Assembly (NCBI RefSeq): GCF_014145395.1
Contig: NZ_JACHTE010000002.1
Location: forward strand, 124,001 to 188,000
DNA length: 64,000 nt
Origin: Marilutibacter penaei
Lineage (GTDB): Bacteria > Pseudomonadota > Gammaproteobacteria > Xanthomonadales > Xanthomonadaceae
Direction: 5' to 3'
Shown in pieces: positions 17,025-27,359 of this stretch. Position 1 is the stretch's first letter. Each line of letters opens with the position of its first letter. The notes under the pieces are model-generated. The model saw only the letters and a list, made by a program, of their open reading frames with translations, was not told where the DNA came from and ran no database searches. The translations under genes were made by a program, and so were the position numbers.

Positions 17025-17591
17025 ATGAGCATCAAGTCTGACCGCTGGATCCGCCGCATGGCCGGGGAGCAGGGCATGATCGAGCCCTTCGAGCCCGGCC
17101 AGGTCAAGCATGTCGCGGGCGAACGCATCGTCAGCTACGGCACCTCCAGCTACGGCTACGACGTGCGCTGCTCGCGCGAGTTCAAGGTGTTCACCAACAT
17201 CAACTCGACGATCGTCGATCCGAAGCATTTCGACCCGGGCAGCTTCGTCGACGTCGAGTCGGACGTCTGCATCATCCCGCCGAACTCCTTCGCCCTGGCG
17301 CGCACGGTGGAGTACTTCCGCATCCCGCGCGACACGCTGGTGGTCTGCCTCGGCAAGAGCACCTACGCGCGCTGCGGCATCATCGTCAACGTCACCCCGC
17401 TCGAGCCCGAGTGGGAAGGCCACGTGACGCTGGAGTTCAGCAACACCACGCCGCTTCCTGCGCGCATCTACGCCAACGAAGGCGTCGCGCAGATGCTGTT
17501 CTTCCAGTCGGACGAAGTCTGCGAAACCTCGTACAAGGACCGGGGCGGCAAGTACCAGGGGCAGACCGGAGTGACGTTGCCGCGGACCTGA
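17025..17591 (+). CDS. dcd: dCTP deaminase
   Basis: Converts dCTP to dUTP, the main source of dUMP for thymidylate synthesis. The 188 residues begin [13 protein letters not shown]. Conserved segments are [53 protein letters not shown] (read in two parts; contains the catalytic Glu region) and [14 protein letters not shown] at the C-terminus. The ATG at 17025 is the family start; a GTG at 16998 would add nine non-conserved residues. Own promoter box upstream; convergent with the following reverse-strand operon. Confidence 0.96.
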
Positions 17592-17648
17592 GCGGTGCGA
17601 TAGGGGTATCGATTGCCCGGCCGTACCCCCTGGCCCGGGTCTCCGGGA

Positions 17649-17942
17649 TCAGTCCCGTGCGTAGGTGACGAAGAACCCCTGCAGGTCGCCGTTTTCCGTG
17701 TAGCCGACCACGTCGACCACGCGGAAGCCCTGGCGATTGAAGGCCTGGTGGGACTGGTTGAGCTCGTCGGCCGCACCGGTCTTCCGGGCGCCGAAGTCGA
17801 CGTCGATGAAGATCGTGACGTTGCGCTGCTGCAGTTGGCGGGCTTCCTCTGCCTTGCGGTCGTAGTGGCCTTGCGTGGCGGCATGGGTGGCCGGCAGCGT
17901 GCAGGCGATCAGGAGGCAGGCGGTCAGGAGTGGGCGGTGCAT
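17649..17942 (-). CDS. Small secreted protein of unknown function at the end of the 5-oxoproline operon
   Basis: 97 residues with a signal peptide (PLLTACLLIACTLPATHA, cleavage probably after THA). The mature part is about 76 residues: a charged helix (YDRKAEEARQLQQRN) and a beta-rich part (VTIFIDVDFGARK, FRVVDVVGY, GDLQGFFVTYARD). I do not recognise a family. GGAG lies before the ATG, which is 13 bases after the pcp stop, so it looks like the last gene of that transcript. Its place suggests a periplasmic role, but nothing in the sequence proves one. Confidence 0.65.
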   Translation of the reverse strand: MHRPLLTACLLIACTLPATHAATQGHYDRKAEEARQLQQRNVTIFIDVDFGARKTGAADELNQSHQAFNRQGFRVVDVVGYTENGDLQGFFVTYARD

Positions 17943-17955
17943 GGGGGCTCCAGGG

Positions 17956-18615
17956 TCAGTGGGTGGCGCCGGCGGCGACGCGGATGTCGTGCGGCGTGGT
18001 CAGGGCGCAGCGCACGGCGATGCGAAGCCCGGCCACGAGGGTCTCAACGGGCAGGCTGGGGGCTCCCGGATGGCCGCTGGCCTGGGCCGGCGAGTACGGT
18101 ACGTGGACGAAGCCGCCGCGTACGCGCGTTTGGCGACGCAACGCATGCATCAGGCCATACAGCACGTGGTTGCAGACGTAGGTCCCCGCGGTCTGCGAGA
18201 TCTCGGCTGGAATCCCCGCCGCATTCAGGGCCTGGCGCATGGCCTTGATCGGCAGCGTGCTGAAGTAGGCGTCGGGGCCGCCTTCGACGACGGCGGTGTC
18301 GATCGGCCGGGCGCCGGCGTTGTCGGCAATGCGTGCATCGTCCACGTTGATGCCGATCCGTTCGAGTGACAGCTGCGCGCGGCCTCCGGCCTGGCCCACG
18401 CAGATCACCAGGGCCGGCTTCAGTTCGCGTAGCGCAGCGCGCAGGACCTTGAGCGAGGTGCCGAACTCGACCGGCAGGCACCGCGCCACGACGCGATGCC
18501 CGGCGATGCGTGCACCGTCGAGCGCGCGTACGGCGTCCCAACTGGGATTGCCGGCCTCGCCGCCGAACGGTTCGAAGCCGGTCAGCAGGACGGTGGCGAC
18601 GCGGACGGGGGGCAT
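17956..18615 (-). CDS. pcp: Pyroglutamyl-peptidase I
   Basis: A cytoplasmic cysteine peptidase (C15) that removes N-terminal pyroglutamate from peptides. It is 219 residues with TGFEPFGG near the start and the triad E85 (LSLERIGIN), C148 (GTYVCNH) and H171 (FVHVPYSP). It is encoded 17 bases after DUF979 in the same direction as the pxp genes. This fits neatly: Pcp releases 5-oxoproline, which PxpABC opens to glutamate. Confidence 0.95.
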
Positions 18616-18632
18616 GGACGCGATTCTCCGGC

Positions 18633-19601
18633 TCAGAACGTGAATGCCAGCCAGTACATCAGCAGCAGGTTGACCAGCAGCAGCGGCAGCGCGGTGGGCA
18701 CCTGTGCGCGGATCACGCCGTTGGGATCGTCGAGCTCCAGCAGCGCCGCCGGGACCAGGTTGAAGTTCGCCGCCATGGGCGTCAGCAGGGTGCCGCAGTA
18801 TCCGGTCAGCATGCCGAGCGCACCGAGGATCGCCGGATTGGCGTCATGCTGGAGGATCAGCAGGGGCAGGCCGATGCCCGCGGTCATGACCGGGAACGCC
18901 GCGAAGGCGTTGCCCATGATGATGGTGAAGAGCGCCATGCCCAGCCCGTACGCCACGATGCAGGCGAACCGGCTGTCGGTGGGGATCACGCCGGACACCA
19001 GATGGGCGACGGCCTCGCCGACGCCGCTGGCACCGAACACGCCGCCCAGCGTCGCGAGCACGAGTGGCAGCAACGCGGCCCAGCCCATCGTGTCGAGGAG
19101 GCGGCGGCCTTCGACGAGTGCCATGCGAGGCGTCTCCCCGGTCACCCGGATCGCGGCGAGGGCCGCCAGGATGCTGGCCAGGGCCAGGCCGATCAGGGTG
19201 ATGCTGCCCGCGCCGAACAGCCGATATCCGCCCCAGCCCACGCGCTCGCCGAACAGCACCACCAGGACGGTGACCACCGGGATCAGCAGGGCCGGCCCGA
19301 ACAACCGGTGACCCAGGCGCGCGGCGGAAGCGCGTCGCTGGGCCTCGGGCGCCTCTTCGAGGTGTTCGCGGCGCATGCGCGGCGCCAACACGGCCAGTGC
19401 GAGGACGGTGGCGCCCGCGACCCGGGAGGGCAGGGGATCGCCTGCGGCATTGGCCTCGAGAACGTACCGCCCGCCGGCGAACAGCGCGGCGACCAGCGAC
19501 CAGAACGCGGCATGCGCATAGCGTCGCTCGCGCGCGTTTCGCAGGCCGGCGTACAGCAGGATGCCGCCGAGGATCCAGTAGAAGAGCTCAAGACCCAGCA
19601 T
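18633..19601 (-). CDS. DUF979 membrane protein, candidate 5-oxoproline transporter subunit
   Basis: 322 residues, very hydrophobic, with about nine or ten membrane segments (for example [16 protein letters not shown] and [16 protein letters not shown]). The conserved central block is [20 protein letters not shown], then [27 protein letters not shown]979 proteins are almost always paired with DUF969. I recall this pair being reported near pyroglutamate genes, so it is a plausible permease, but the function is inferred. The ATG at 19601 overlaps the DUF969 end by 14 bases. Confidence 0.85.
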
Positions 19602-20292
19602 CGTCCGCCTCCGCGGAGGCGGCGAGCCGGCGCCGCAATCCGCGCTCGAATACCTGGATGCGCACGGCGTGGATGACGAAGGCGGCGATGGCGGTGGGCA
19701 GGGCCCACAGGGCGATCTGCAGCGGCTCGAGGCTGATCCCGTGTTCGGCATAGAAGCCCTGGATCAGCAGCACCGCGCCGAACGCGAGGAACACGTCCTC
19801 GCCGAAGAACCGGCCGACATTGTCCGTCGCCGCGCCGAGCGCATGCACCCGCTGCAGTTCCTGGCTGTCCAGCGGCCTGCCGTGATCCTTCGTCGCCGCG
19901 GACGTCGACATCGGGGCGAGCAGCGGCCGGACGGTCTGCGCGTGGCCCGCGACGTCGATGAGCCCGAGCATGCTCAGCACCTGGCGGACGCCGAGATAGG
20001 CCACCAGCAACCGGGTCAGCGTCAGACGGGTCCAGGTGGAGATCCACTGGATCGCATGCTCGCGCAGCCCGGCGCGTTCCAGCAGGCCGATCGTCGGCAG
20101 GGTGAACACGAACAGCAGCAGGGCACGGTTCGAGACGAAGCTGGTGCCGAGCAGCGACAGCAGGTCCGGCAGGGACATGCCGGCGAGCAAACCGCTGACC
20201 AGTCCGGCCGAGACCACCACCACCACCGGATTGAAACGAAGGACGAAGCCGAGCACCACCACCAGCACGCCCAGCAGGGGCCAGTAGTTCAC
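19588..20292 (-). CDS. DUF969 membrane protein, candidate 5-oxoproline transporter subunit
   Basis: 234 residues with about five or six membrane helices (for example LLGVLVVVLGFVLRFNPV and ALLLFVFTLPTIGLLERAGL). A conserved soluble loop reads LGAATDNVGRFFGEDVFLAFGAVLLIQ. The start is a GTG at 20292, which overlaps the pxpA stop as GTGA; this fits the family N-terminus (VNYWPLLGVLVVV). Paired with DUF979 downstream. The two together resemble a split transporter; direction and substrate are inferred only from context. Confidence 0.85.
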   Translation of the reverse strand: MNYWPLLGVLVVVLGFVLRFNPVVVVVSAGLVSGLLAGMSLPDLLSLLGTSFVSNRALLLFVFTLPTIGLLERAGLREHAIQWISTWTRLTLTRLLVAYLGVRQVLSMLGLIDVAGHAQTVRPLLAPMSTSAATKDHGRPLDSQELQRVHALGAATDNVGRFFGEDVFLAFGAVLLIQGFYAEHGISLEPLQIALWALPTAIAAFVIHAVRIQVFERGLRRRLAASAEADDAGS

Positions 20293-21041
20293 GCGGGCGC
20301 CCCGGGGGACCGGATGTCCAGACCCTCGGCCTCCAGTGCCGCGCGCAACGCACGGGCGAAGCCGGCGGCGTCCGCCCGGTCCCCATGCAGGCAGAGCGTG
20401 TCGGCCTGCAACTCCAGGACTTCTCCGTCGGGCAAGGTAAGCGTCCCGTTGCGTGCCAGCGCGCAGGCCTGGGCCACGGCGGCCTCGATGCTGTCCAGCA
20501 CCGCGCCCGGGGCGGTTCGCGGCAGCAGCCGGCCATCGGGCCCATAGCCCCGTTCGGCAAACACCTCGTGGGCGACGCGCAGGCCATTCGCGCCCGCCGC
20601 ATCGGTCAGCGCCGATCCCGACAGGCCGTAGATAATCAGGTCGGGATCGAATCCGGCGACCGCTTCGACGATCGCATCCGCGATGGCGCGGTCGCGGGCG
20701 GCCATGTTGTAGAGCGCGCCGTGCGGCTTGACGTGCGCCAACCGCATGCCTTCCTCGTCCGCGATGCGCGTGAGGCGGCGCAGCTGCGCGGTGACCAGGA
20801 GCATCACCTGGCCGGGGCCGGCGTCGAGTTCGCGACGGCCGAAGTGCTCCCGGTCGACGAAGCCCGGGTGCGCACCCGCGGCCACGCCATGGTCCCGGCA
20901 CAGGCGCAGCGTGGCTCGCATGGTGGCGTCGTCCCCGGCGTGGCCGCCGCAGGCGATGCTGGCGGAGCTGAGCAGCGGGATGATCGCGGCGTCGTCGCCG
21001 CAGCCCTCGCCCAGGTCGCAATTGAAGTCGATATGCCGCAT
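20289..21041 (-). CDS. pxpA: 5-oxoprolinase subunit A (LamB/YcsF family)
   Basis: One of three subunits of the ATP-dependent prokaryotic 5-oxoprolinase that hydrolyses 5-oxo-L-proline to glutamate. It is 250 residues, opening with MRHIDFNCDLGEGCGDD and continuing with SIACGGHAGD, AAGAHPGFVDREHFGRRE and VKPHGALYN, all LamB/YcsF signatures. The His and Asp residues in these blocks probably form the active site. The ATG at 21041 has AAGGGAAGG upstream; a start at 21083 would overlap pxpC. It sits after pxpC and is coupled to DUF969. Confidence 0.95.
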   Translation of the reverse strand: MRHIDFNCDLGEGCGDDAAIIPLLSSASIACGGHAGDDATMRATLRLCRDHGVAAGAHPGFVDREHFGRRELDAGPGQVMLLVTAQLRRLTRIADEEGMRLAHVKPHGALYNMAARDRAIADAIVEAVAGFDPDLIIYGLSGSALTDAAGANGLRVAHEVFAERGYGPDGRLLPRTAPGAVLDSIEAAVAQACALARNGTLTLPDGEVLELQADTLCLHGDRADAAGFARALRAALEAEGLDIRSPGAPA

Positions 21042-21070
21042 GTCGTCGGGCCTTCCCTTGATCCGACAGG

Positions 21071-22042
21071 TTAGCCCATCCATGGATCGAGCCGGGTATC
21101 GAGCAGGTGCGCGAGCCGCTTCCAGCGCGCCTGCCGCTGCCGCCGGAGCACGCGCGATCCCTCGAGGTCGACCGGCGTCCAGCGAATGCGCTGCCCAGGC
21201 GCGACCTGCGCCAAGCGCGGGAGGTCGGCGGCACACACATGCCCGAGGCGTGGATAACCCCCGGTGGTCTGGGCATCGGCCAGCAGCACGATGGGATGCC
21301 CGTCCGGCGGCAGTTGCAGGGTGCCGGGTGCGACCGGCCCGGAGACGATGTCCATGCGCGGCGATTCCAGCGCCGGCCCCTGCAGGCGCAGGCCCTGGCG
21401 GTTGCTGCGAGGGTCGACGGTCCACGCGCCGGCTGCGAGTCCGGCCGCGGCGGGATGCGCGGAAGGGACGTAGTGCAGGTCGACGCCGTGGTCGATGGGG
21501 TCGTCGAACTCCACCCACCAGGACGGACCTGACGGCGTATCGACGTCCAGTGCCGGGACCCGCATCGAGACGCGGTCGCCGCGGGCGAGTGCACGCCCTC
21601 CCAGGCCTCCGAAGCCGCCGCGAAGATCGGTGCTGCGGCTGCCCATCACTTGGGGCAGCGAAACGGTCCCCGCGATCGCCAGCCACGCGCGCACGCCCAG
21701 GCGCAGGCGGCCGACGCGCAGCCGCCCGGGCGGCAGGCGGAGCGGGCGGCCATGGCCGAGACTCGTGCAGGTGCCGTCGCGGGCGATATGGGCCATGTCG
21801 GCGAGCGCGCCGCACAAGGCGACCCTGAGGGGAACATCGAAGGCCAGCGTGACGCCGGCCAGCGTCATTTCCAGCACCGCGGCGTCATCGGCGTTTCCGA
21901 CCAGCCGGTTCGCAAGCGCGGCCGCATCAGGGTCCAATGCGCCGGCGCGGGCCACGCCGACATGGCGGAAGCCGGTGCGGCCGCGGTCCTGCACGGTGGT
22001 CAGCGGACCGGGCACGATGACTTCGAGGGTCGCCTGCCTCAT
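21071..22042 (-). CDS. pxpC: 5-oxoprolinase subunit C (biotin-dependent carboxyltransferase-like)
   Basis: Works with PxpB (an allophanate-hydrolase-subunit-like pair) to activate 5-oxoproline with ATP. The 323 residues start MRQATLEVIVPGPLTTVQDRGR, followed by VGVARAGALDPDAAALANRLVGN. The C-terminal part contains GYPRLGHVCAADLPRLAQV. The ATG at 22042 overlaps the pxpB stop (ATGA). Older names are KipA or YbgK; the full pxpABC set here supports the 5-oxoprolinase reading over urea amidolyase. Confidence 0.95.
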   Translation of the reverse strand: MRQATLEVIVPGPLTTVQDRGRTGFRHVGVARAGALDPDAAALANRLVGNADDAAVLEMTLAGVTLAFDVPLRVALCGALADMAHIARDGTCTSLGHGRPLRLPPGRLRVGRLRLGVRAWLAIAGTVSLPQVMGSRSTDLRGGFGGLGGRALARGDRVSMRVPALDVDTPSGPSWWVEFDDPIDHGVDLHYVPSAHPAAAGLAAGAWTVDPRSNRQGLRLQGPALESPRMDIVSGPVAPGTLQLPPDGHPIVLLADAQTTGGYPRLGHVCAADLPRLAQVAPGQRIRWTPVDLEGSRVLRRQRQARWKRLAHLLDTRLDPWMG

Positions 22043-22743
22043 CGCTCGGCTCCGGCGATGGCCCGGAACGTGTCCTCATCGACCGGCCTGAAGCGTACCC
22101 GGTCACCGGGCTGGAGCAGGGCCGGTTGCGGTCGCGACGGGTCGAACAGGCGCAGGGGCGTGCGCCCGAGGATCTGCCAGCCCCCCGGGCTGTCGCGGGG
22201 GTAGATGCCGGTCTGTGCGCCCCCGATTGCCACCGATCCCGCGGGGATGCAGGTGCGCGGGGTCGCAAGGCGGGGGAGCGCCAGCGCAGGGTCGAGGCCG
22301 GACAGGTACGGGAAACCCGGCGCGAAACCGATCATCGCCACCGCGTAATCGCCGGCGGCGTGCCGTTCAATCAGGGTGCCCGGCGACATTCCGAGCGCCC
22401 GGGAGGCGTCGTCGAGATCGGGGCCAAGCGTGCCGCCGTAGCAGACTGGCACGTCGACCACGCGCGCATCGGCGGGGGCGGACACGGGTGCGTCGCGCTC
22501 CAGTTCGGACCGGAGCCAGGCGCATACCCGGTCGGGCCCGATGCCGTCGGCATCGAAGAACACGCCAACGCTTGCATACGCGGGCACCAGGTCCAGCACC
22601 CCGGCCGGCCGCGTGGCGGCGAGTTGCGTCGCCAGGGCGTGTACCCGGGCGATCGTGGCATCGTCGATGCCATCGCCGAGCGTCACGCAAAGCGCGTCGT
22701 CGGACAGCCAGCTGACGCGGGGGCGTCCGGGACGCTCACCCAT
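22039..22743 (-). CDS. pxpB: 5-oxoprolinase subunit B (KipI-like)
   Basis: Partner of PxpC. It is 234 residues from the ATG at 22743. It contains VPVCYGGTLGPDLDDASRALGMS, then YAVAMIGFAPGFPYLSGLDP and the very conserved tail IPAGSVAIGGAQTGIYPRDSPGGW. This start overlaps the HIT gene by 8 bases; a GTG at 22755 would add four residues and overlap further. The gene heads the pxpB-pxpC-pxpA run. Confidence 0.94.
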   Translation of the reverse strand: MGERPGRPRVSWLSDDALCVTLGDGIDDATIARVHALATQLAATRPAGVLDLVPAYASVGVFFDADGIGPDRVCAWLRSELERDAPVSAPADARVVDVPVCYGGTLGPDLDDASRALGMSPGTLIERHAAGDYAVAMIGFAPGFPYLSGLDPALALPRLATPRTCIPAGSVAIGGAQTGIYPRDSPGGWQILGRTPLRLFDPSRPQPALLQPGDRVRFRPVDEDTFRAIAGAER

Positions 22744-23158
22744 CCAGTGCACCACGCAACGCGGTGATGCGTACCACCAGGGCCTCAGGTGAGTAGGGGG
22801 CCGCGGTGGCCGTGCCCCAGACCGGCCTGGGCCAGGCGATATCGTTGCGGAAGCGTGCGATCACGTGCACGTGCAGTTGTTCGACCATGTTGCCGAGCGC
22901 CGCCACGTTGAGCTTGTCGGGCTTGAATTGCGCCAGCAGCACGCGGCTGGCGGCGTCGATCTCCCGTGTCAGCGCGGCGCGTTCCGAGGCGCGCAGGTCC
23001 GTAAGCTCGCGCGCGTCGGGGACCCGCGGCACGAGGATCAACCACGGATGGTGGGCGTCATCCATGAGGCGGAGCTCGCTGAGGGGCAGCTGCGCGACCG
23101 GGTGCGTGTCCTCGGCCAGTTGCGGGTGCAGGTGCCATTCGTGGGCCGGAATCTTCAT
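22736..23158 (-). CDS. HIT domain protein
   Basis: A histidine-triad nucleotide hydrolase/transferase-type protein of 140 residues. The signature is QLHVHVIARFRND: the catalytic middle His and the last His are present, but the first His of H-x-H-x-H is Gln. LVPRVPDARELTDL is a typical HIT strand-turn. Its ATG overlaps the stop of the short upstream frame (ATGA), and its own stop overlaps pxpB, so it is co-transcribed with the 5-oxoproline genes. The functional link is unknown. Confidence 0.88.
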   Translation of the reverse strand: MKIPAHEWHLHPQLAEDTHPVAQLPLSELRLMDDAHHPWLILVPRVPDARELTDLRASERAALTREIDAASRVLLAQFKPDKLNVAALGNMVEQLHVHVIARFRNDIAWPRPVWGTATAAPYSPEALVVRITALRGALDG

Positions 23159-23313
23159 CGCAGGGTCTCCTCCAGGAACGCCCGCGCGCGTGGCCAGGCG
23201 CCCTCAGCGGCCCGGGTCGCGGGATCGCCGTGGCGATCGCGTTTGAAGCCATGGCGGGCGTCGTGCGGGTGTCCTTGGGCGTGGCGGGCCGTGTCGGGGT
23301 GGGCCATCGGCAT
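23155..23313 (-). CDS. Small frame resembling the C-terminus of a dienelactone hydrolase (remnant or small protein)
   Basis: 52 codons from the ATG at 23313, preceded by CGGAGG at good spacing, ending in a TGA that overlaps the HIT start (ATGA). The product is His- and Arg-rich. Its second half, DARHGFKRDRHGD...AEGAWPRARAFLEETL, looks like the last 35 residues of dienelactone-hydrolase proteins, where the His is catalytic. No nucleophile elbow exists upstream; the frame is closed at a TAG at 23367. It may be a decayed gene whose end was kept to couple HIT translation, or a genuine micro-protein. Confidence 0.45.
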   Translation of the reverse strand: MPMAHPDTARHAQGHPHDARHGFKRDRHGDPATRAAEGAWPRARAFLEETLR

Positions 23314-23361
23314 GCCTCCGTTCAGGTGGGGGTAGGGCTGGACGCGGCGTGTTCGGGGTCG

Positions 23362-23383
23362 ATTCTAGCGCCGGCGCTATAAT
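23362..23383. promoter_or_regulatory. Divergent -10 boxes between the HIT/pxp operon and rimO
   Basis: Reverse-strand TAGAAT (23362-23367) faces the small frame, HIT and pxp operon; forward-strand TATAAT (23378-23383) faces rimO. They are separated by the GC palindrome GCGCCGGCGC. Both follow the local pattern CTAnAATtCG. -35 hexamers are poor. Confidence 0.5.
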
Positions 23384-23447
23384 TCGCGCCCTGCTTCGTC
23401 ATCCGAGCCAGACGACGCATTCGCCTGCCCGCCTACTCCATCGACGT

Positions 23448-23545
23448 GGGAGGGCCTGGCCTTTCAGGACCGTACGCGGCATGGATGCCGCGTCCGAGCC
23501 CCCATGGATGGGTTCACGGCGTGTCCTGAAAGGCCAGGCCCTTCC
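23448..23545. repeat. Long inverted repeat (23-bp arms) in the rimO leader
   Basis: The left arm 23448-23470 pairs with the right arm 23523-23545: 19 bp perfect (23452-23470 with 23523-23541) plus four more pairs outside, one of them G-T. The 52-base loop holds a second hairpin, GCGGCAT/ATGCCGC at 23476-23491. Bases 23469-23479 can instead pair with 23554-23564 (11 bp perfect), a fold that excludes the first. It resembles a dispersed palindromic element more than a terminator, since no U-run follows. Confidence 0.8.
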
Positions 23546-23659
23546 GCGGCGCCCCGCGTACGGTTCTCCAACGCCACGTCCGTCCGCGTCCTTGTGGATG
23601 GTCCAGGCCTTCCGGCCACGCGTTGGCCGTAACGTCCCAATTCCTGATTCGTGGTCCGT

Positions 23660-24991
23660 ATGTCCATCGCCAATCCCAAAGTCGGTTTCGTCAGCCTCGG
23701 TTGTCCCAAGGCGCTCGTTGATTCAGAACGCATCCTGACCCAGTTGAAGGTCGAGGGGTACGACCTCGTGCCGAGCTACGACGATGCCGACGTGGTCGTG
23801 GTCAACACCTGCGGCTTCATCGATTCCGCCGTGGCCGAGTCGCTCGACGCGATCGGTGAGGCGATGGCCGAGAACGGCAAGGTGATCGTCACCGGCTGCC
23901 TGGGCAAGCGTGAAGAGGTGATCCGCGAGGCGCACCCGGGCGTACTGTCGATCAGCGGCCCGCAGGACTACGCCAGCGTGATGCGCGCGGTGCACACCGC
24001 GTTGCCGCCGAGGCACGACCCCTTCGTCGACCTGGTGCCCGACCACGGCCTGAAGCTGACGCCGAAGCACTACGCGTACCTGAAGATTTCCGAGGGCTGC
24101 AACCACCGGTGCAGCTTCTGCATCATCCCGTCGATGCGTGGCGACCTCGCGAGCCGGCCGGTCGACCAGGTGCTGCGCGAGGCCGAGAAGCTGGCGATGG
24201 GCGGCGTCAAGGAACTGCTGGTGATCTCGCAGGACACCTCCGCCTACGGCGTGGATCTCAGGTACGCCGAGCGCGAATGGCGCGGCAAGGCGTACCAGAC
24301 GCGCATGAAGGCCTTGTGCGAGGGCCTGTCGGAGCTGGGCTTGTGGACGCGCCTGCATTACGTGTATCCGTATCCGCATGTCGACGATGTCATTCCGCTG
24401 ATGGCCGAGGGCAAGCTGTTGCCCTACCTGGACATCCCGTTCCAGCACGCCAGCCCGCGCATCCTCAAGCTGATGAAGCGCCCTGGTGCCGTCGACAAGA
24501 CGCTCGAGCGCATCCAGCGCTGGCGCGACATCTGCCCGGACATCACCATCCGCAGCACGTTCATTGTGGGTTTCCCCGGCGAGACGGACGCGGAGTTCGA
24601 GGCGCTGCTGGATTTCCTGGAAGAGGCCCAGCTCGACCGCGTCGGCGCCTTCGCGTATTCGCCGGTCGAGGGCGCTGCGGCCAACGACCTGCCCGACGCG
24701 GTGCCGGAAGAGGTGAAGCAGGAGCGCCTGGCCCGCTTCATGGAGCTGCAGGCCGACATTTCCACGGCGAAGCTCGAGGCCAAGGTGGGTACGACGCAGC
24801 GTTGCCTCGTCGATGCGATTGACGGCGACCTGGCGATCGCCCGTTCGATGGCGGATGCGCCGGAGATCGACGGCCTCGTGCAGATCCAGAACGGCTTCGA
24901 GGCCGGCCTCAAGCCCGGTGAGTTCGTGGATGTCGAGATCATGGGCAGCGACGAGCACGACCTGTACGGCGAGGTCGCCTTCGGCGATTGA
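23660..24991 (+). CDS. rimO: Ribosomal protein S12 methylthiotransferase RimO
   Basis: A radical-SAM enzyme that adds a methylthio group to an Asp of ribosomal protein S12. It is 443 residues. The N-terminal UPF0004 domain carries its three cluster Cys in [19 protein letters not shown] and TGCLGK. The radical-SAM motif is CNHRCSFC (in [18 protein letters not shown]), and a TRAM domain occupies about 375-443. The ATG at 23660 gives [17 protein letters not shown] as in relatives; a GTG nine bases upstream is possible. Confidence 0.97.
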
Positions 24992-25820: not shown

Positions 25821-27359
25821 TCAACCTGCCGGCAGGTACTCGAGGGGCGCTTCCGGCCCGATCGGCCAGCCCGCCATGATCCAGATCGTGAACAGCACCG
25901 TCCAGCCGATCAGGAATGCGATCGAGTAGGGCAACATGGTGGCGACCACCGTGCCGATGCCAGCCTTGGGCTCGTAACGCTGCAGGAACGCGATGATCAG
26001 TGCGAAGTAACTCATCATCGGCGAGATGATGTTGGTGACCGAATCGCCGATGCGATAGGCGATCTGGGTCATTTCCGGCGAGTAGCCCAGGAGCATGAAC
26101 ATCGGGATGAACACCGGCGCCATCAGCGCCCACTTGGCCGACGCCGACCCCATGAACAGGTTGGCGGTGGCCGTGAGCACGATGAACGCGATGAACAGCG
26201 GGGCGGCCGGCAGGTCGATGGCCTTCAGGAACCCCGCGCCTTCGATGGCGAAGATCAGGCCGAGCTGGGTCCAGTTGAAGAAGGCCACGAACTGCGCCGC
26301 GAAGAAGATCAGCACAAGGTAGGTGCCCAGGGTCTCCATGGACTTGCTCATGCCCTGGATGACGTCGGCGTCGTTGCGGATCGTGCCCGCGCCGATCCCG
26401 TACGCGATGCCGGCCACGACGCCGTAGGCGAAGATGATCGCGACGATCCCGCGCAGGAACGGCGAGCGCAGCAGGTCGCCGTCCGGTGCGCGCAGGAAGC
26501 CATCGGCGGGCACCGTGCCCCACAGCACCAGCAGGGTCAGGGCCAGCGATGCCAGCAGGGCGAACCACAGGCCACGCTTCTCCTCGGGCCGCATGGCTTC
26601 GATTTCCTGCGTTTCGCCCTGCACCTGTGGCGCGTCCGGGAACCGCTTCGCGACCACCTTTTCCGTCACCACCGTGCCCAGCAGCGCAATCACCGGCGTG
26701 GAGGCGATCATGAAGTACCAGTTGGCGGCGGCGTTCACCTCGTACGCGGGGTCGATGATGCGCGCGGCCTCCTGCGAGAGGCCGGCCAGGAGGGGATCGA
26801 TGGTGCCCAGCAGCAGGTTGGCCGAGTAACCGCCCGACACGCCGGCGAAGGCGGCGGCCATGCCGAGGATCGGGTGGCGTCCGGCGGCGATGAAGATCAG
26901 GCCGGCCAGGGGGACCAGCAGCACGTAGCCGATCTCCGAGGCCATGTTGGACATGATGCCGGCGAACACGACCACGAAGGTCAACAGGCGCCGGGGTGCC
27001 GAAAGCACCAGCAGGCGCAGCGCGGCGCCGATCAGGCCGCTGTGCTCCGCCACGCCGATGCCGATCAGCGCCACCAGCACCGTGCCCAGTGGCGCGAACC
27101 CGGTGAAGTTGGTGATCAGGCCGTCGAGGATGCGGTGCAGGCCATCGACGCTCAGCAGGTTGACGGGCCGGATCGCCTCGCCGGTCACCGGGTGCGCGAC
27201 CGACAGGTCGAGCTGCGAGCAGACCCAGGAGAGCACTACCACCGCCACCGCCATCAGGGCGAACAGGGTGACCGGATGAGGCAGCGCATTGCCCCCCTTC
27301 TCGATGACGTTGAGGAAACGGTCGATAGCGGAGCGTCGAATGGCGGGGGGCTGGTTCAT
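25821..27359 (-). CDS. AbgT family transporter
   Basis: A 512-residue inner-membrane protein of the AbgT family (p-aminobenzoyl-glutamate transport in E. coli; some members export sulfonamides). About 11-13 hydrophobic helices and re-entrant hairpins are visible, with the conserved segments [38 protein letters not shown] and [19 protein letters not shown] cytoplasmic charged loop ([24 protein letters not shown]) splits the protein. Substrate cannot be assigned; no abgAB hydrolase genes are adjacent. Confidence 0.92.

Follow-up and report, generated by a model that had tools for sequence, protein, structure and literature searches.

A run of nine open reading frames (ORFs) on the minus strand of Marilutibacter penaei is likely a 5-oxoproline operon, in which the membrane proteins of the families DUF969 and DUF979 form one split secondary importer of the ion-transporter (IT) fold, pyroglutamyl-peptidase I (Pcp) releases 5-oxoproline and the 5-oxoprolinase PxpABC opens its ring. 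The run occupies positions 17649 to 23313 of the window, i.e., the whole stretch of 64,000 nucleotides (nt) that was analyzed (NCBI RefSeq assembly GCF_014145395.1, contig NZ_JACHTE010000002.1, positions 124,001 to 188,000). The reading is based on gene content, gene order, conservation and the linkage of the DUF969/DUF979 pair to two unrelated presumed oxoprolinases. 5-Oxoproline is the ring form of glutamate. DUF969 and DUF979 would each supply one of the two repeats of the IT fold, which VcINDY-like relatives hold in one polypeptide, and the transporter, whose substrate, direction, coupling ion and heteromeric state we infer, would bring 5-oxoproline into the cell, probably with Na+ or H+. 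Pcp, acting in the cytoplasm, would free 5-oxoproline from pyroglutamyl peptides, and PxpABC would convert it to glutamate by ATP-dependent opening of the ring. If this is true, a substrate is assigned to two Pfam families whose function is unknown, and the pair provides an example of a split repeat within a well-studied transporter superfamily. Although probably right, the interpretation is an instance of a published proposal with preliminary experimental support; the contribution of the present analysis is the association of the pair with a second presumed oxoprolinase of unrelated type, together with a sampled co-occurrence test, which the proposal survives, and a caution concerning Pcp.

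In the order of transcription, the run consists of a 52-amino-acid (aa) remnant, a gene for a HIT-domain protein (22736..23158, 140 aa), pxpB (22039..22743), pxpC (21071..22042, 323 aa), pxpA (20289..21041, 250 aa), the genes of the DUF969 (19588..20292, 234 aa, GTG start) and DUF979 (18633..19601, 322 aa) membrane proteins, pcp (17956..18615, 219 aa) and the gene of a 97-aa protein. The part from HIT to pcp extends from 23158 to 17956 on the minus strand, which encodes all nine ORFs. ATGA overlaps are present at the remnant/HIT and pxpB/pxpC junctions and a GTGA overlap at the pxpA/DUF969 junction; HIT and pxpB overlap by 8 nt, provided that pxpB starts at its ATG (an alternative start is possible at the GTG at 22755), and DUF969 and DUF979 overlap by 14 nt. 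The intergenic gaps measure 29 nt (pxpC-pxpA), 17 nt (DUF979-pcp) and 13 nt (pcp-97-aa gene). The mechanically called DUF979 ORF (from 19751) begins too early, and its start was corrected to 19601. A first-pass annotation of the window had described pcp, two membrane proteins and pxpABC as one tight reverse-strand run with ATGA/GTGA overlaps, which was confirmed by Pfam and NCBIfam matches and by the junctions; the genes it named are all in place, and the HIT gene, which it did not name, is also part of the run.

The completeness of PxpABC plus Pcp, claimed in the same annotation, is supported by family matches. All three oxoprolinase subunits are encoded in the one run: PxpA matched Pfam LamB_YcsF (E 5e-84, query 20301-21074) and the NCBIfam subfamily model NF003814, PxpB matched CT_C_D (E 1e-70) and TIGR00370, and PxpC matched CT_A_B (E 2e-70) and TIGR00724, with the three NCBIfam models above their cut-offs; the NCBIfam equivalog for PxpC scored below its cut-off (218 vs 500 bits). 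PxpABC of the run is predicted to be an ATP-dependent 5-oxoprolinase giving glutamate. Pcp matched Peptidase_C15 (E 5e-75) and TIGR00504 (272 bits, above cut-off), and its comparison with the solved pyrrolidone-carboxylate peptidase 3lac (E 3e-72) aligned GTYVCNH to GTFVCNH. The two membrane proteins matched Pfam DUF969 (E 4e-80) and DUF979 (E 7e-105), and the HIT-domain protein matched Pfam HIT (E 1e-14).

The distribution of the pair was determined in 199 genomes of Pseudomonadota and in 150 genomes of the family of genome G178 (presumably Burkholderiaceae, judging from gene order). DUF979 was above the cut-off in 15 of the 199 Pseudomonadota genomes, and DUF969 was found in the same 15, adjacent to it; a sixteenth DUF979 match, in G117, was below the cut-off and was excluded. 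Totals for the 199 genomes were 71 with PxpA, 29 with Pcp (some partial), 13 with DUF2891 and 84 with Hydantoinase_B. Among the 15 carriers of DUF979, PxpA was present in ten, Pcp in ten, DUF2891 in seven and an OPLAH-type gene in five, the latter assigned where the best Hydantoinase_B match of a genome fell in an open frame of 1150 aa or longer (40/199 genomes). PxpA occurred in 10/15 carriers vs 61/184 non-carriers (Fisher p 0.011) and lay at most 2 kb from the pair in nine of the ten carriers possessing it, the tenth (G173) having PxpA on another contig, and in all ten Pcp-bearing carriers Pcp and DUF979 were no more than about 2 kb apart. In the family sample, with DUF979 in 17/150 genomes, PxpA occurred in 16/17 carriers vs 29/133 others (p 6e-9), and was within 2 kb of the pair in all 16. 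The genome-wide co-occurrence of DUF969/DUF979 with pxp and pcp genes, which the first-pass annotation had proposed as a check, was thereby found, and in neither sample was the pair mostly without these genes.

Five carriers of the phylum sample lack PxpA (G011, G114, G119, G140 and G183), and all of them except G011 have a fused HyuA-HyuB gene. This gene stands immediately upstream of DUF969 in G119, G140 and G183, with DUF979 and DUF2891 downstream, and on another contig in G114. The sole PxpA-less carrier of the family sample, G365, has DUF969, DUF979 and pcp, followed about 2.2 kb on by an OPLAH-type gene on the same strand. Considering both samples, a fused HyuA-HyuB gene is present in five of the six PxpA-less carriers and clustered with the pair in four. 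Hydant_A_N, Hydantoinase_A and Hydantoinase_B were found in one chain in four proteins (G199, G119, G183 and G114), an architecture which we take to be that of eukaryotic 5-oxoprolinase (OPLAH). PxpA or an OPLAH-type gene was present in 14/15 carriers vs 89/184 other genomes (Fisher p 5e-4). Caulobacter vibrioides, one of 14 named control genomes, yielded matches to DUF979, DUF969, DUF2891 and Hydantoinase_B, and none to PxpA; Escherichia coli, also among the controls, yielded a match to PxpA and none to DUF979. In other genomes, an OPLAH-type enzyme is encoded next to DUF969/DUF979 instead of PxpABC, whereas the genome of the run yielded no Hydantoinase_B match. Because the presumed oxoprolinase that clusters with the pair can be one or the other of two unrelated kinds, 5-oxoproline itself is suggested as the substrate, and the exchange, if real, is an independent argument for it. 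We lean slightly towards the broader view that the split IT-fold 5-oxoproline transporter is a module combined freely with PxpABC or with fused HyuA-HyuB, in many lineages together with Pcp or DUF2891.

A search of the genome collection with the DUF979 protein of the window gave 281 relatives, of which the best 80 were taken; this set was chosen by similarity to DUF979, includes loci that end at contig ends and is not a fair sample. The loci closest to the run are from records titled Lysobacter, and the gene order of the run is preserved in Lysobacter-type relatives. DUF969 and DUF979 occur together in 80/80 of these DUF979-selected loci, accompanied by pcp in 68, pxpA in 47, pxpB in 47, pxpC in 40, HIT in 29 and the 97-aa protein in 10; the count for pxpC is too low because six loci with pxpB and pxpC in one frame received one label. 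In L043, L056, L062, L066, L071 and L075, pxpB and pxpC match the same open frame, likely natural PxpB-PxpC fusions. No natural DUF969-DUF979 fusion was found among the open frames of 99 loci, in which the only double matches were fused pxpB-pxpC (six loci). Nearby pxpA is missing from 33 of the 80 loci; 32 of the corresponding genomes were searched, of which five have PxpA elsewhere and 27 have no PxpA above the cut-off (one of the latter, G223, gave a below-cut-off match that resembles a fragment). In all 27, Hydantoinase_B matched an open frame no shorter than 1203 aa, and no OPLAH-type gene was found in the available flanks of their loci. The OPLAH-type gene of these genomes was considered as decisive evidence and found to be weakened by the frequency of Hydantoinase_B, by the Duganella/Massilia titles of 22/27 loci and by its absence from the available flanks. 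DUF2891 directly follows DUF979 in L107, L108, L109, L110 and L112, whether or not an oxoprolinase gene is nearby, and yielded no match in G000, the genome of the run; in L107, an OPLAH-type gene is clustered with the pair.

The predicted models of DUF979 (ma48c7edbe4e4) and DUF969 (m077e22b0d221) have predicted local distance difference test (pLDDT) scores of 90.1 and 86.3, respectively. In the fold comparison, the DUF979 model matched VcINDY 4f35 (Z 11.2, 175 residues, root-mean-square deviation (rmsd) 5.5), TRAP SiaQM (Z 10.7, 253 residues, rmsd 7.7), ArsB (Z 9.4, 197 residues, rmsd 4.3) and NaS1 (Z 9.1, 198 residues, rmsd 4.4), all below the Z of about 13 under which, according to the tool, matches of helical models may be due to chance. 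The first 20 matches are all of the ion-transporter type, each of them presumably a member of that superfamily, and the best match of another kind reached Z 6.6. The IT-fold match of DUF979 is trusted because these 20 matches are all of one type and because the same clan was reached by another method (PMC11467057). DUF979 would, according to its model, belong to the IT superfamily with a DASS/TRAP-like fold of about one repeat. Residues 41-240 of VcINDY (4f35, 6ol0), about one repeat, match DUF979 at approximately 93-319 (Z 11.2); in VcINDY a single chain holds both repeats (passages of PMC11467057), whereas DUF979 covers one. Positions 209-322 of DUF979 pair with 129-243 of 5ul7 (rmsd 2.5), and Gly230-Asn231 is invariant in 50/50 sequences. 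Placed by range only, these two residues would presumably fall close to the VcINDY Ser-Asn-Thr motif for sodium and substrate. Asn279 and Asn281 of DUF979 are invariant as well, and DUF969 has a conserved stretch around Asn158. Solved relatives detected by sequence were none for DUF969 and, for DUF979, weak potassium-channel matches with E of at least 0.14.

The first-pass annotation knew of no assigned substrate for DUF969/DUF979, but a proposed 5-oxoproline role is already in print: in the available passages of PMC12795558, the pair is proposed as a 5-oxoproline transporter, with credit to Niehaus 2017 and PMC6904757. The same passages report that a Campylobacter jejuni cj0552-4 mutant lost growth on 5-oxoproline in a test described by its authors as preliminary; cj0552-4 shares the DUF969-DUF979 pair with the run, and there DUF2891 follows, whereas G000 is without a DUF2891 match. 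The clustering of PxpABC with DUF969/DUF979 (Niehaus et al. 2017, via passages of PMC12795558 and PMC11467057) corresponds to the run in families, proposed roles and arrangement as a cluster; the run itself has pcp after the pair, HIT before pxpB and the order B-C-A. Passages of PMC11467057 place DUF979 in the ion-transporter superfamily and predict a complex with DUF969, with an interface predicted template modelling (ipTM) score of about 0.9 for the Clostridioides difficile proteins and a DUF979 homodimer unsupported. Along with operon position, co-occurrence, adjacency and the fold of DUF979, the published preliminary phenotype supports the pair as the likely uptake system, as had been suggested from the sequence. 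According to passages of PMC6904757, the pair is reported to transport 5-oxoproline in Bacillus subtilis, and such a reaction was added to a B. megaterium model; counter to that statement, the B. subtilis control genome yielded no DUF969 match. Passages of PMC13274462 describe PxpT beside pxpABC in Corynebacterium glutamicum, with YcsG as its B. subtilis homologue, and mention TRAP receptors for 5-oxoproline in Bordetella pertussis. Like the pair, PxpT/YcsG is encoded with pxpABC as a membrane protein and is needed for growth on 5-oxoproline; unlike DUF969/DUF979, it is a single protein of the APC superfamily (NRAMP-like). No APC/NRAMP-type gene is found in the pxp operon, the genes of which match other families or are small and without a family (97 and 52 aa), the rest of the genome being outside this search. 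PMC10040529 lists clusters of Hydantoinase B/oxoprolinase, DUF969, DUF979 and DUF2891 under close numbers (113, 115-117), its available passages discussing only the Hydantoinase B/oxoprolinase cluster. Apart from this list of such genes under nearby cluster numbers, the literature search found no statement of the oxoprolinase exchange, with Niehaus 2017 known only via citing papers.

Several observations weigh against import of 5-oxoproline by a split IT-fold transporter. Relatedness is not taken into account in the Fisher tests, and the two samples share G178. In the phylum sample, the association of DUF979 with Pcp (p 2e-6) and with DUF2891 (p 4e-6) is statistically tighter than that with PxpA (p 0.011). 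The OPLAH-type gene alone is not enriched in carriers (5/15, p 0.16), Hydantoinase_B genes are common (84/199 and 103/150 genomes), and the OPLAH-type proteins are presumed oxoprolinases, the substrate of which the sequence leaves undecided: among solved structures, the G199 protein was most similar to 7hk5, named N-methylhydantoinase (E 1e-139), and the NCBIfam models for caprolactamase and acetophenone carboxylase matched such proteins only below their cut-offs. G011 carries the pair and Pcp with neither a PxpA nor a HyuB match, and the proposition that every carrier has an oxoprolinase was rejected, as none was detected there. Regarding the fold, DUF969 matched NaCT with Z 8.7 (183 residues), compared with Z 9.2 for an unrelated helical chain of a BCL-xL/designed-inhibitor entry, and no Foldseek match at E 0.001 was obtained for either protein (best DUF979 E 0.013). 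As judged from sequence, shared ancestry of DUF969 and DUF979 was rejected, the profile comparison covering only 28 columns with 0.6% probability. Finally, the cj0552-4 deletion removed DUF2891 along with the pair (passages of PMC12795558).

As Pcp is the closest partner, uptake of pyroglutamyl peptides stays alive as the main rival: DUF969/DUF979 would import small pyroglutamyl peptides (e.g., pGlu dipeptides), from which cytoplasmic Pcp frees 5-oxoproline for the oxoprolinase. The first-pass annotation had named 5-oxoproline or a pyroglutamyl peptide as substrate, and free 5-oxoproline is held to be the more probable of the two, although Pcp, not PxpA, is most tightly associated with DUF979 among the 199 Pseudomonadota genomes. 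Peptides are favored by the location of pcp, which lies about 2 kb or less from DUF979 in 10/15 carriers and in the flanks of 68/80 related loci, many of which show DUF969-DUF979-pcp without nearby pxpA; moreover, free 5-oxoproline would not require Pcp. On the other hand, 5/15 carriers are without Pcp, three of them with the arrangement OPLAH-DUF969-DUF979-DUF2891, the C. jejuni phenotype concerned free 5-oxoproline (passages of PMC12795558), and the IT-fold relatives of DUF979 are named mostly for small anions; peptide import is considered rather unlikely. Very little credence is given to export by the pair, as overflow relief, of 5-oxoproline that arises intracellularly, through Pcp or by spontaneous cyclisation. 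Such spontaneous formation in cells is described in passages of PMC13274462, and the AbgT pumps MtrF and YdaH are among the three best Foldseek matches of DUF979, but deletion of a segment including the pair abolishes growth on external 5-oxoproline (passages of PMC12795558) and the pair is co-located with enzymes consuming 5-oxoproline. It is just as improbable that the pair transports another small carboxylate or amino acid and was placed here by chance of operon growth. This would be in line with G011, which has the pair and Pcp with no known oxoprolinase detected, and with the 27 of 32 searched genomes in which PxpA is neither local nor above the cut-off elsewhere and the available flanks lack an OPLAH-type gene. 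Against it, each of these 27 genomes has a Hydantoinase_B match in a frame at least 1203 aa long, although such genes are common in both samples, and the pair clusters with two unrelated presumed oxoprolinases. Import of 5-oxoproline remains the favored explanation of the run.

The divergent gene upstream of the run is presumably rimO. TAGAATC is invariant in 5/5 aligned upstream regions (hand-chosen: the window, L001, L002, L011 and L013), with clear similarity to the window around it only in L011 and L013. This motif may hold the -10 box of the operon, the candidate being TAGAAT at 23362..23367 on the minus strand; a consensus scan of 17300-23700 for sigma-70 promoters and terminators returned none. 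The 52-aa ORF (23155..23313, minus strand) was rejected as an independent gene, as it corresponds to the 3' end of a dienelactone hydrolase gene: in tblastn it showed 49% identity to the C-terminal end of the 220-aa L002 protein and 45% to the L001 counterpart. The L001 protein is a member of Pfam DLH (E 4e-36), the remnant itself has no family match, and the DNA similarity ends after about 110 bp. The hydrolase gene is whole and heads the run in L001 and L002; in the window only the 52-aa tail is present, and it has kept the ATGA overlap with the start of HIT. An imperfect inverted repeat (23442-23551) lies between rimO and the remnant; it has 29-nt arms, 90% complementary and 52 nt apart, and may be an element resembling repetitive extragenic palindromes (REP-like) tied to the loss of the hydrolase gene. 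Its 18-base core has no other copy in the window at up to three mismatches. The gene at 25821-27359, less than 3 kb away from the run, encodes an AbgT-family transporter, which matched TIGR00819 with E 2e-169 but scored below the cut-off of that model. At the other end of the run, the 97-aa protein (17649..17942, minus strand) has a start that resembles a signal peptide by eye and no Pfam or NCBIfam family at E 0.001; tblastn detected relatives in ten loci, seven of them titled Lysobacter.

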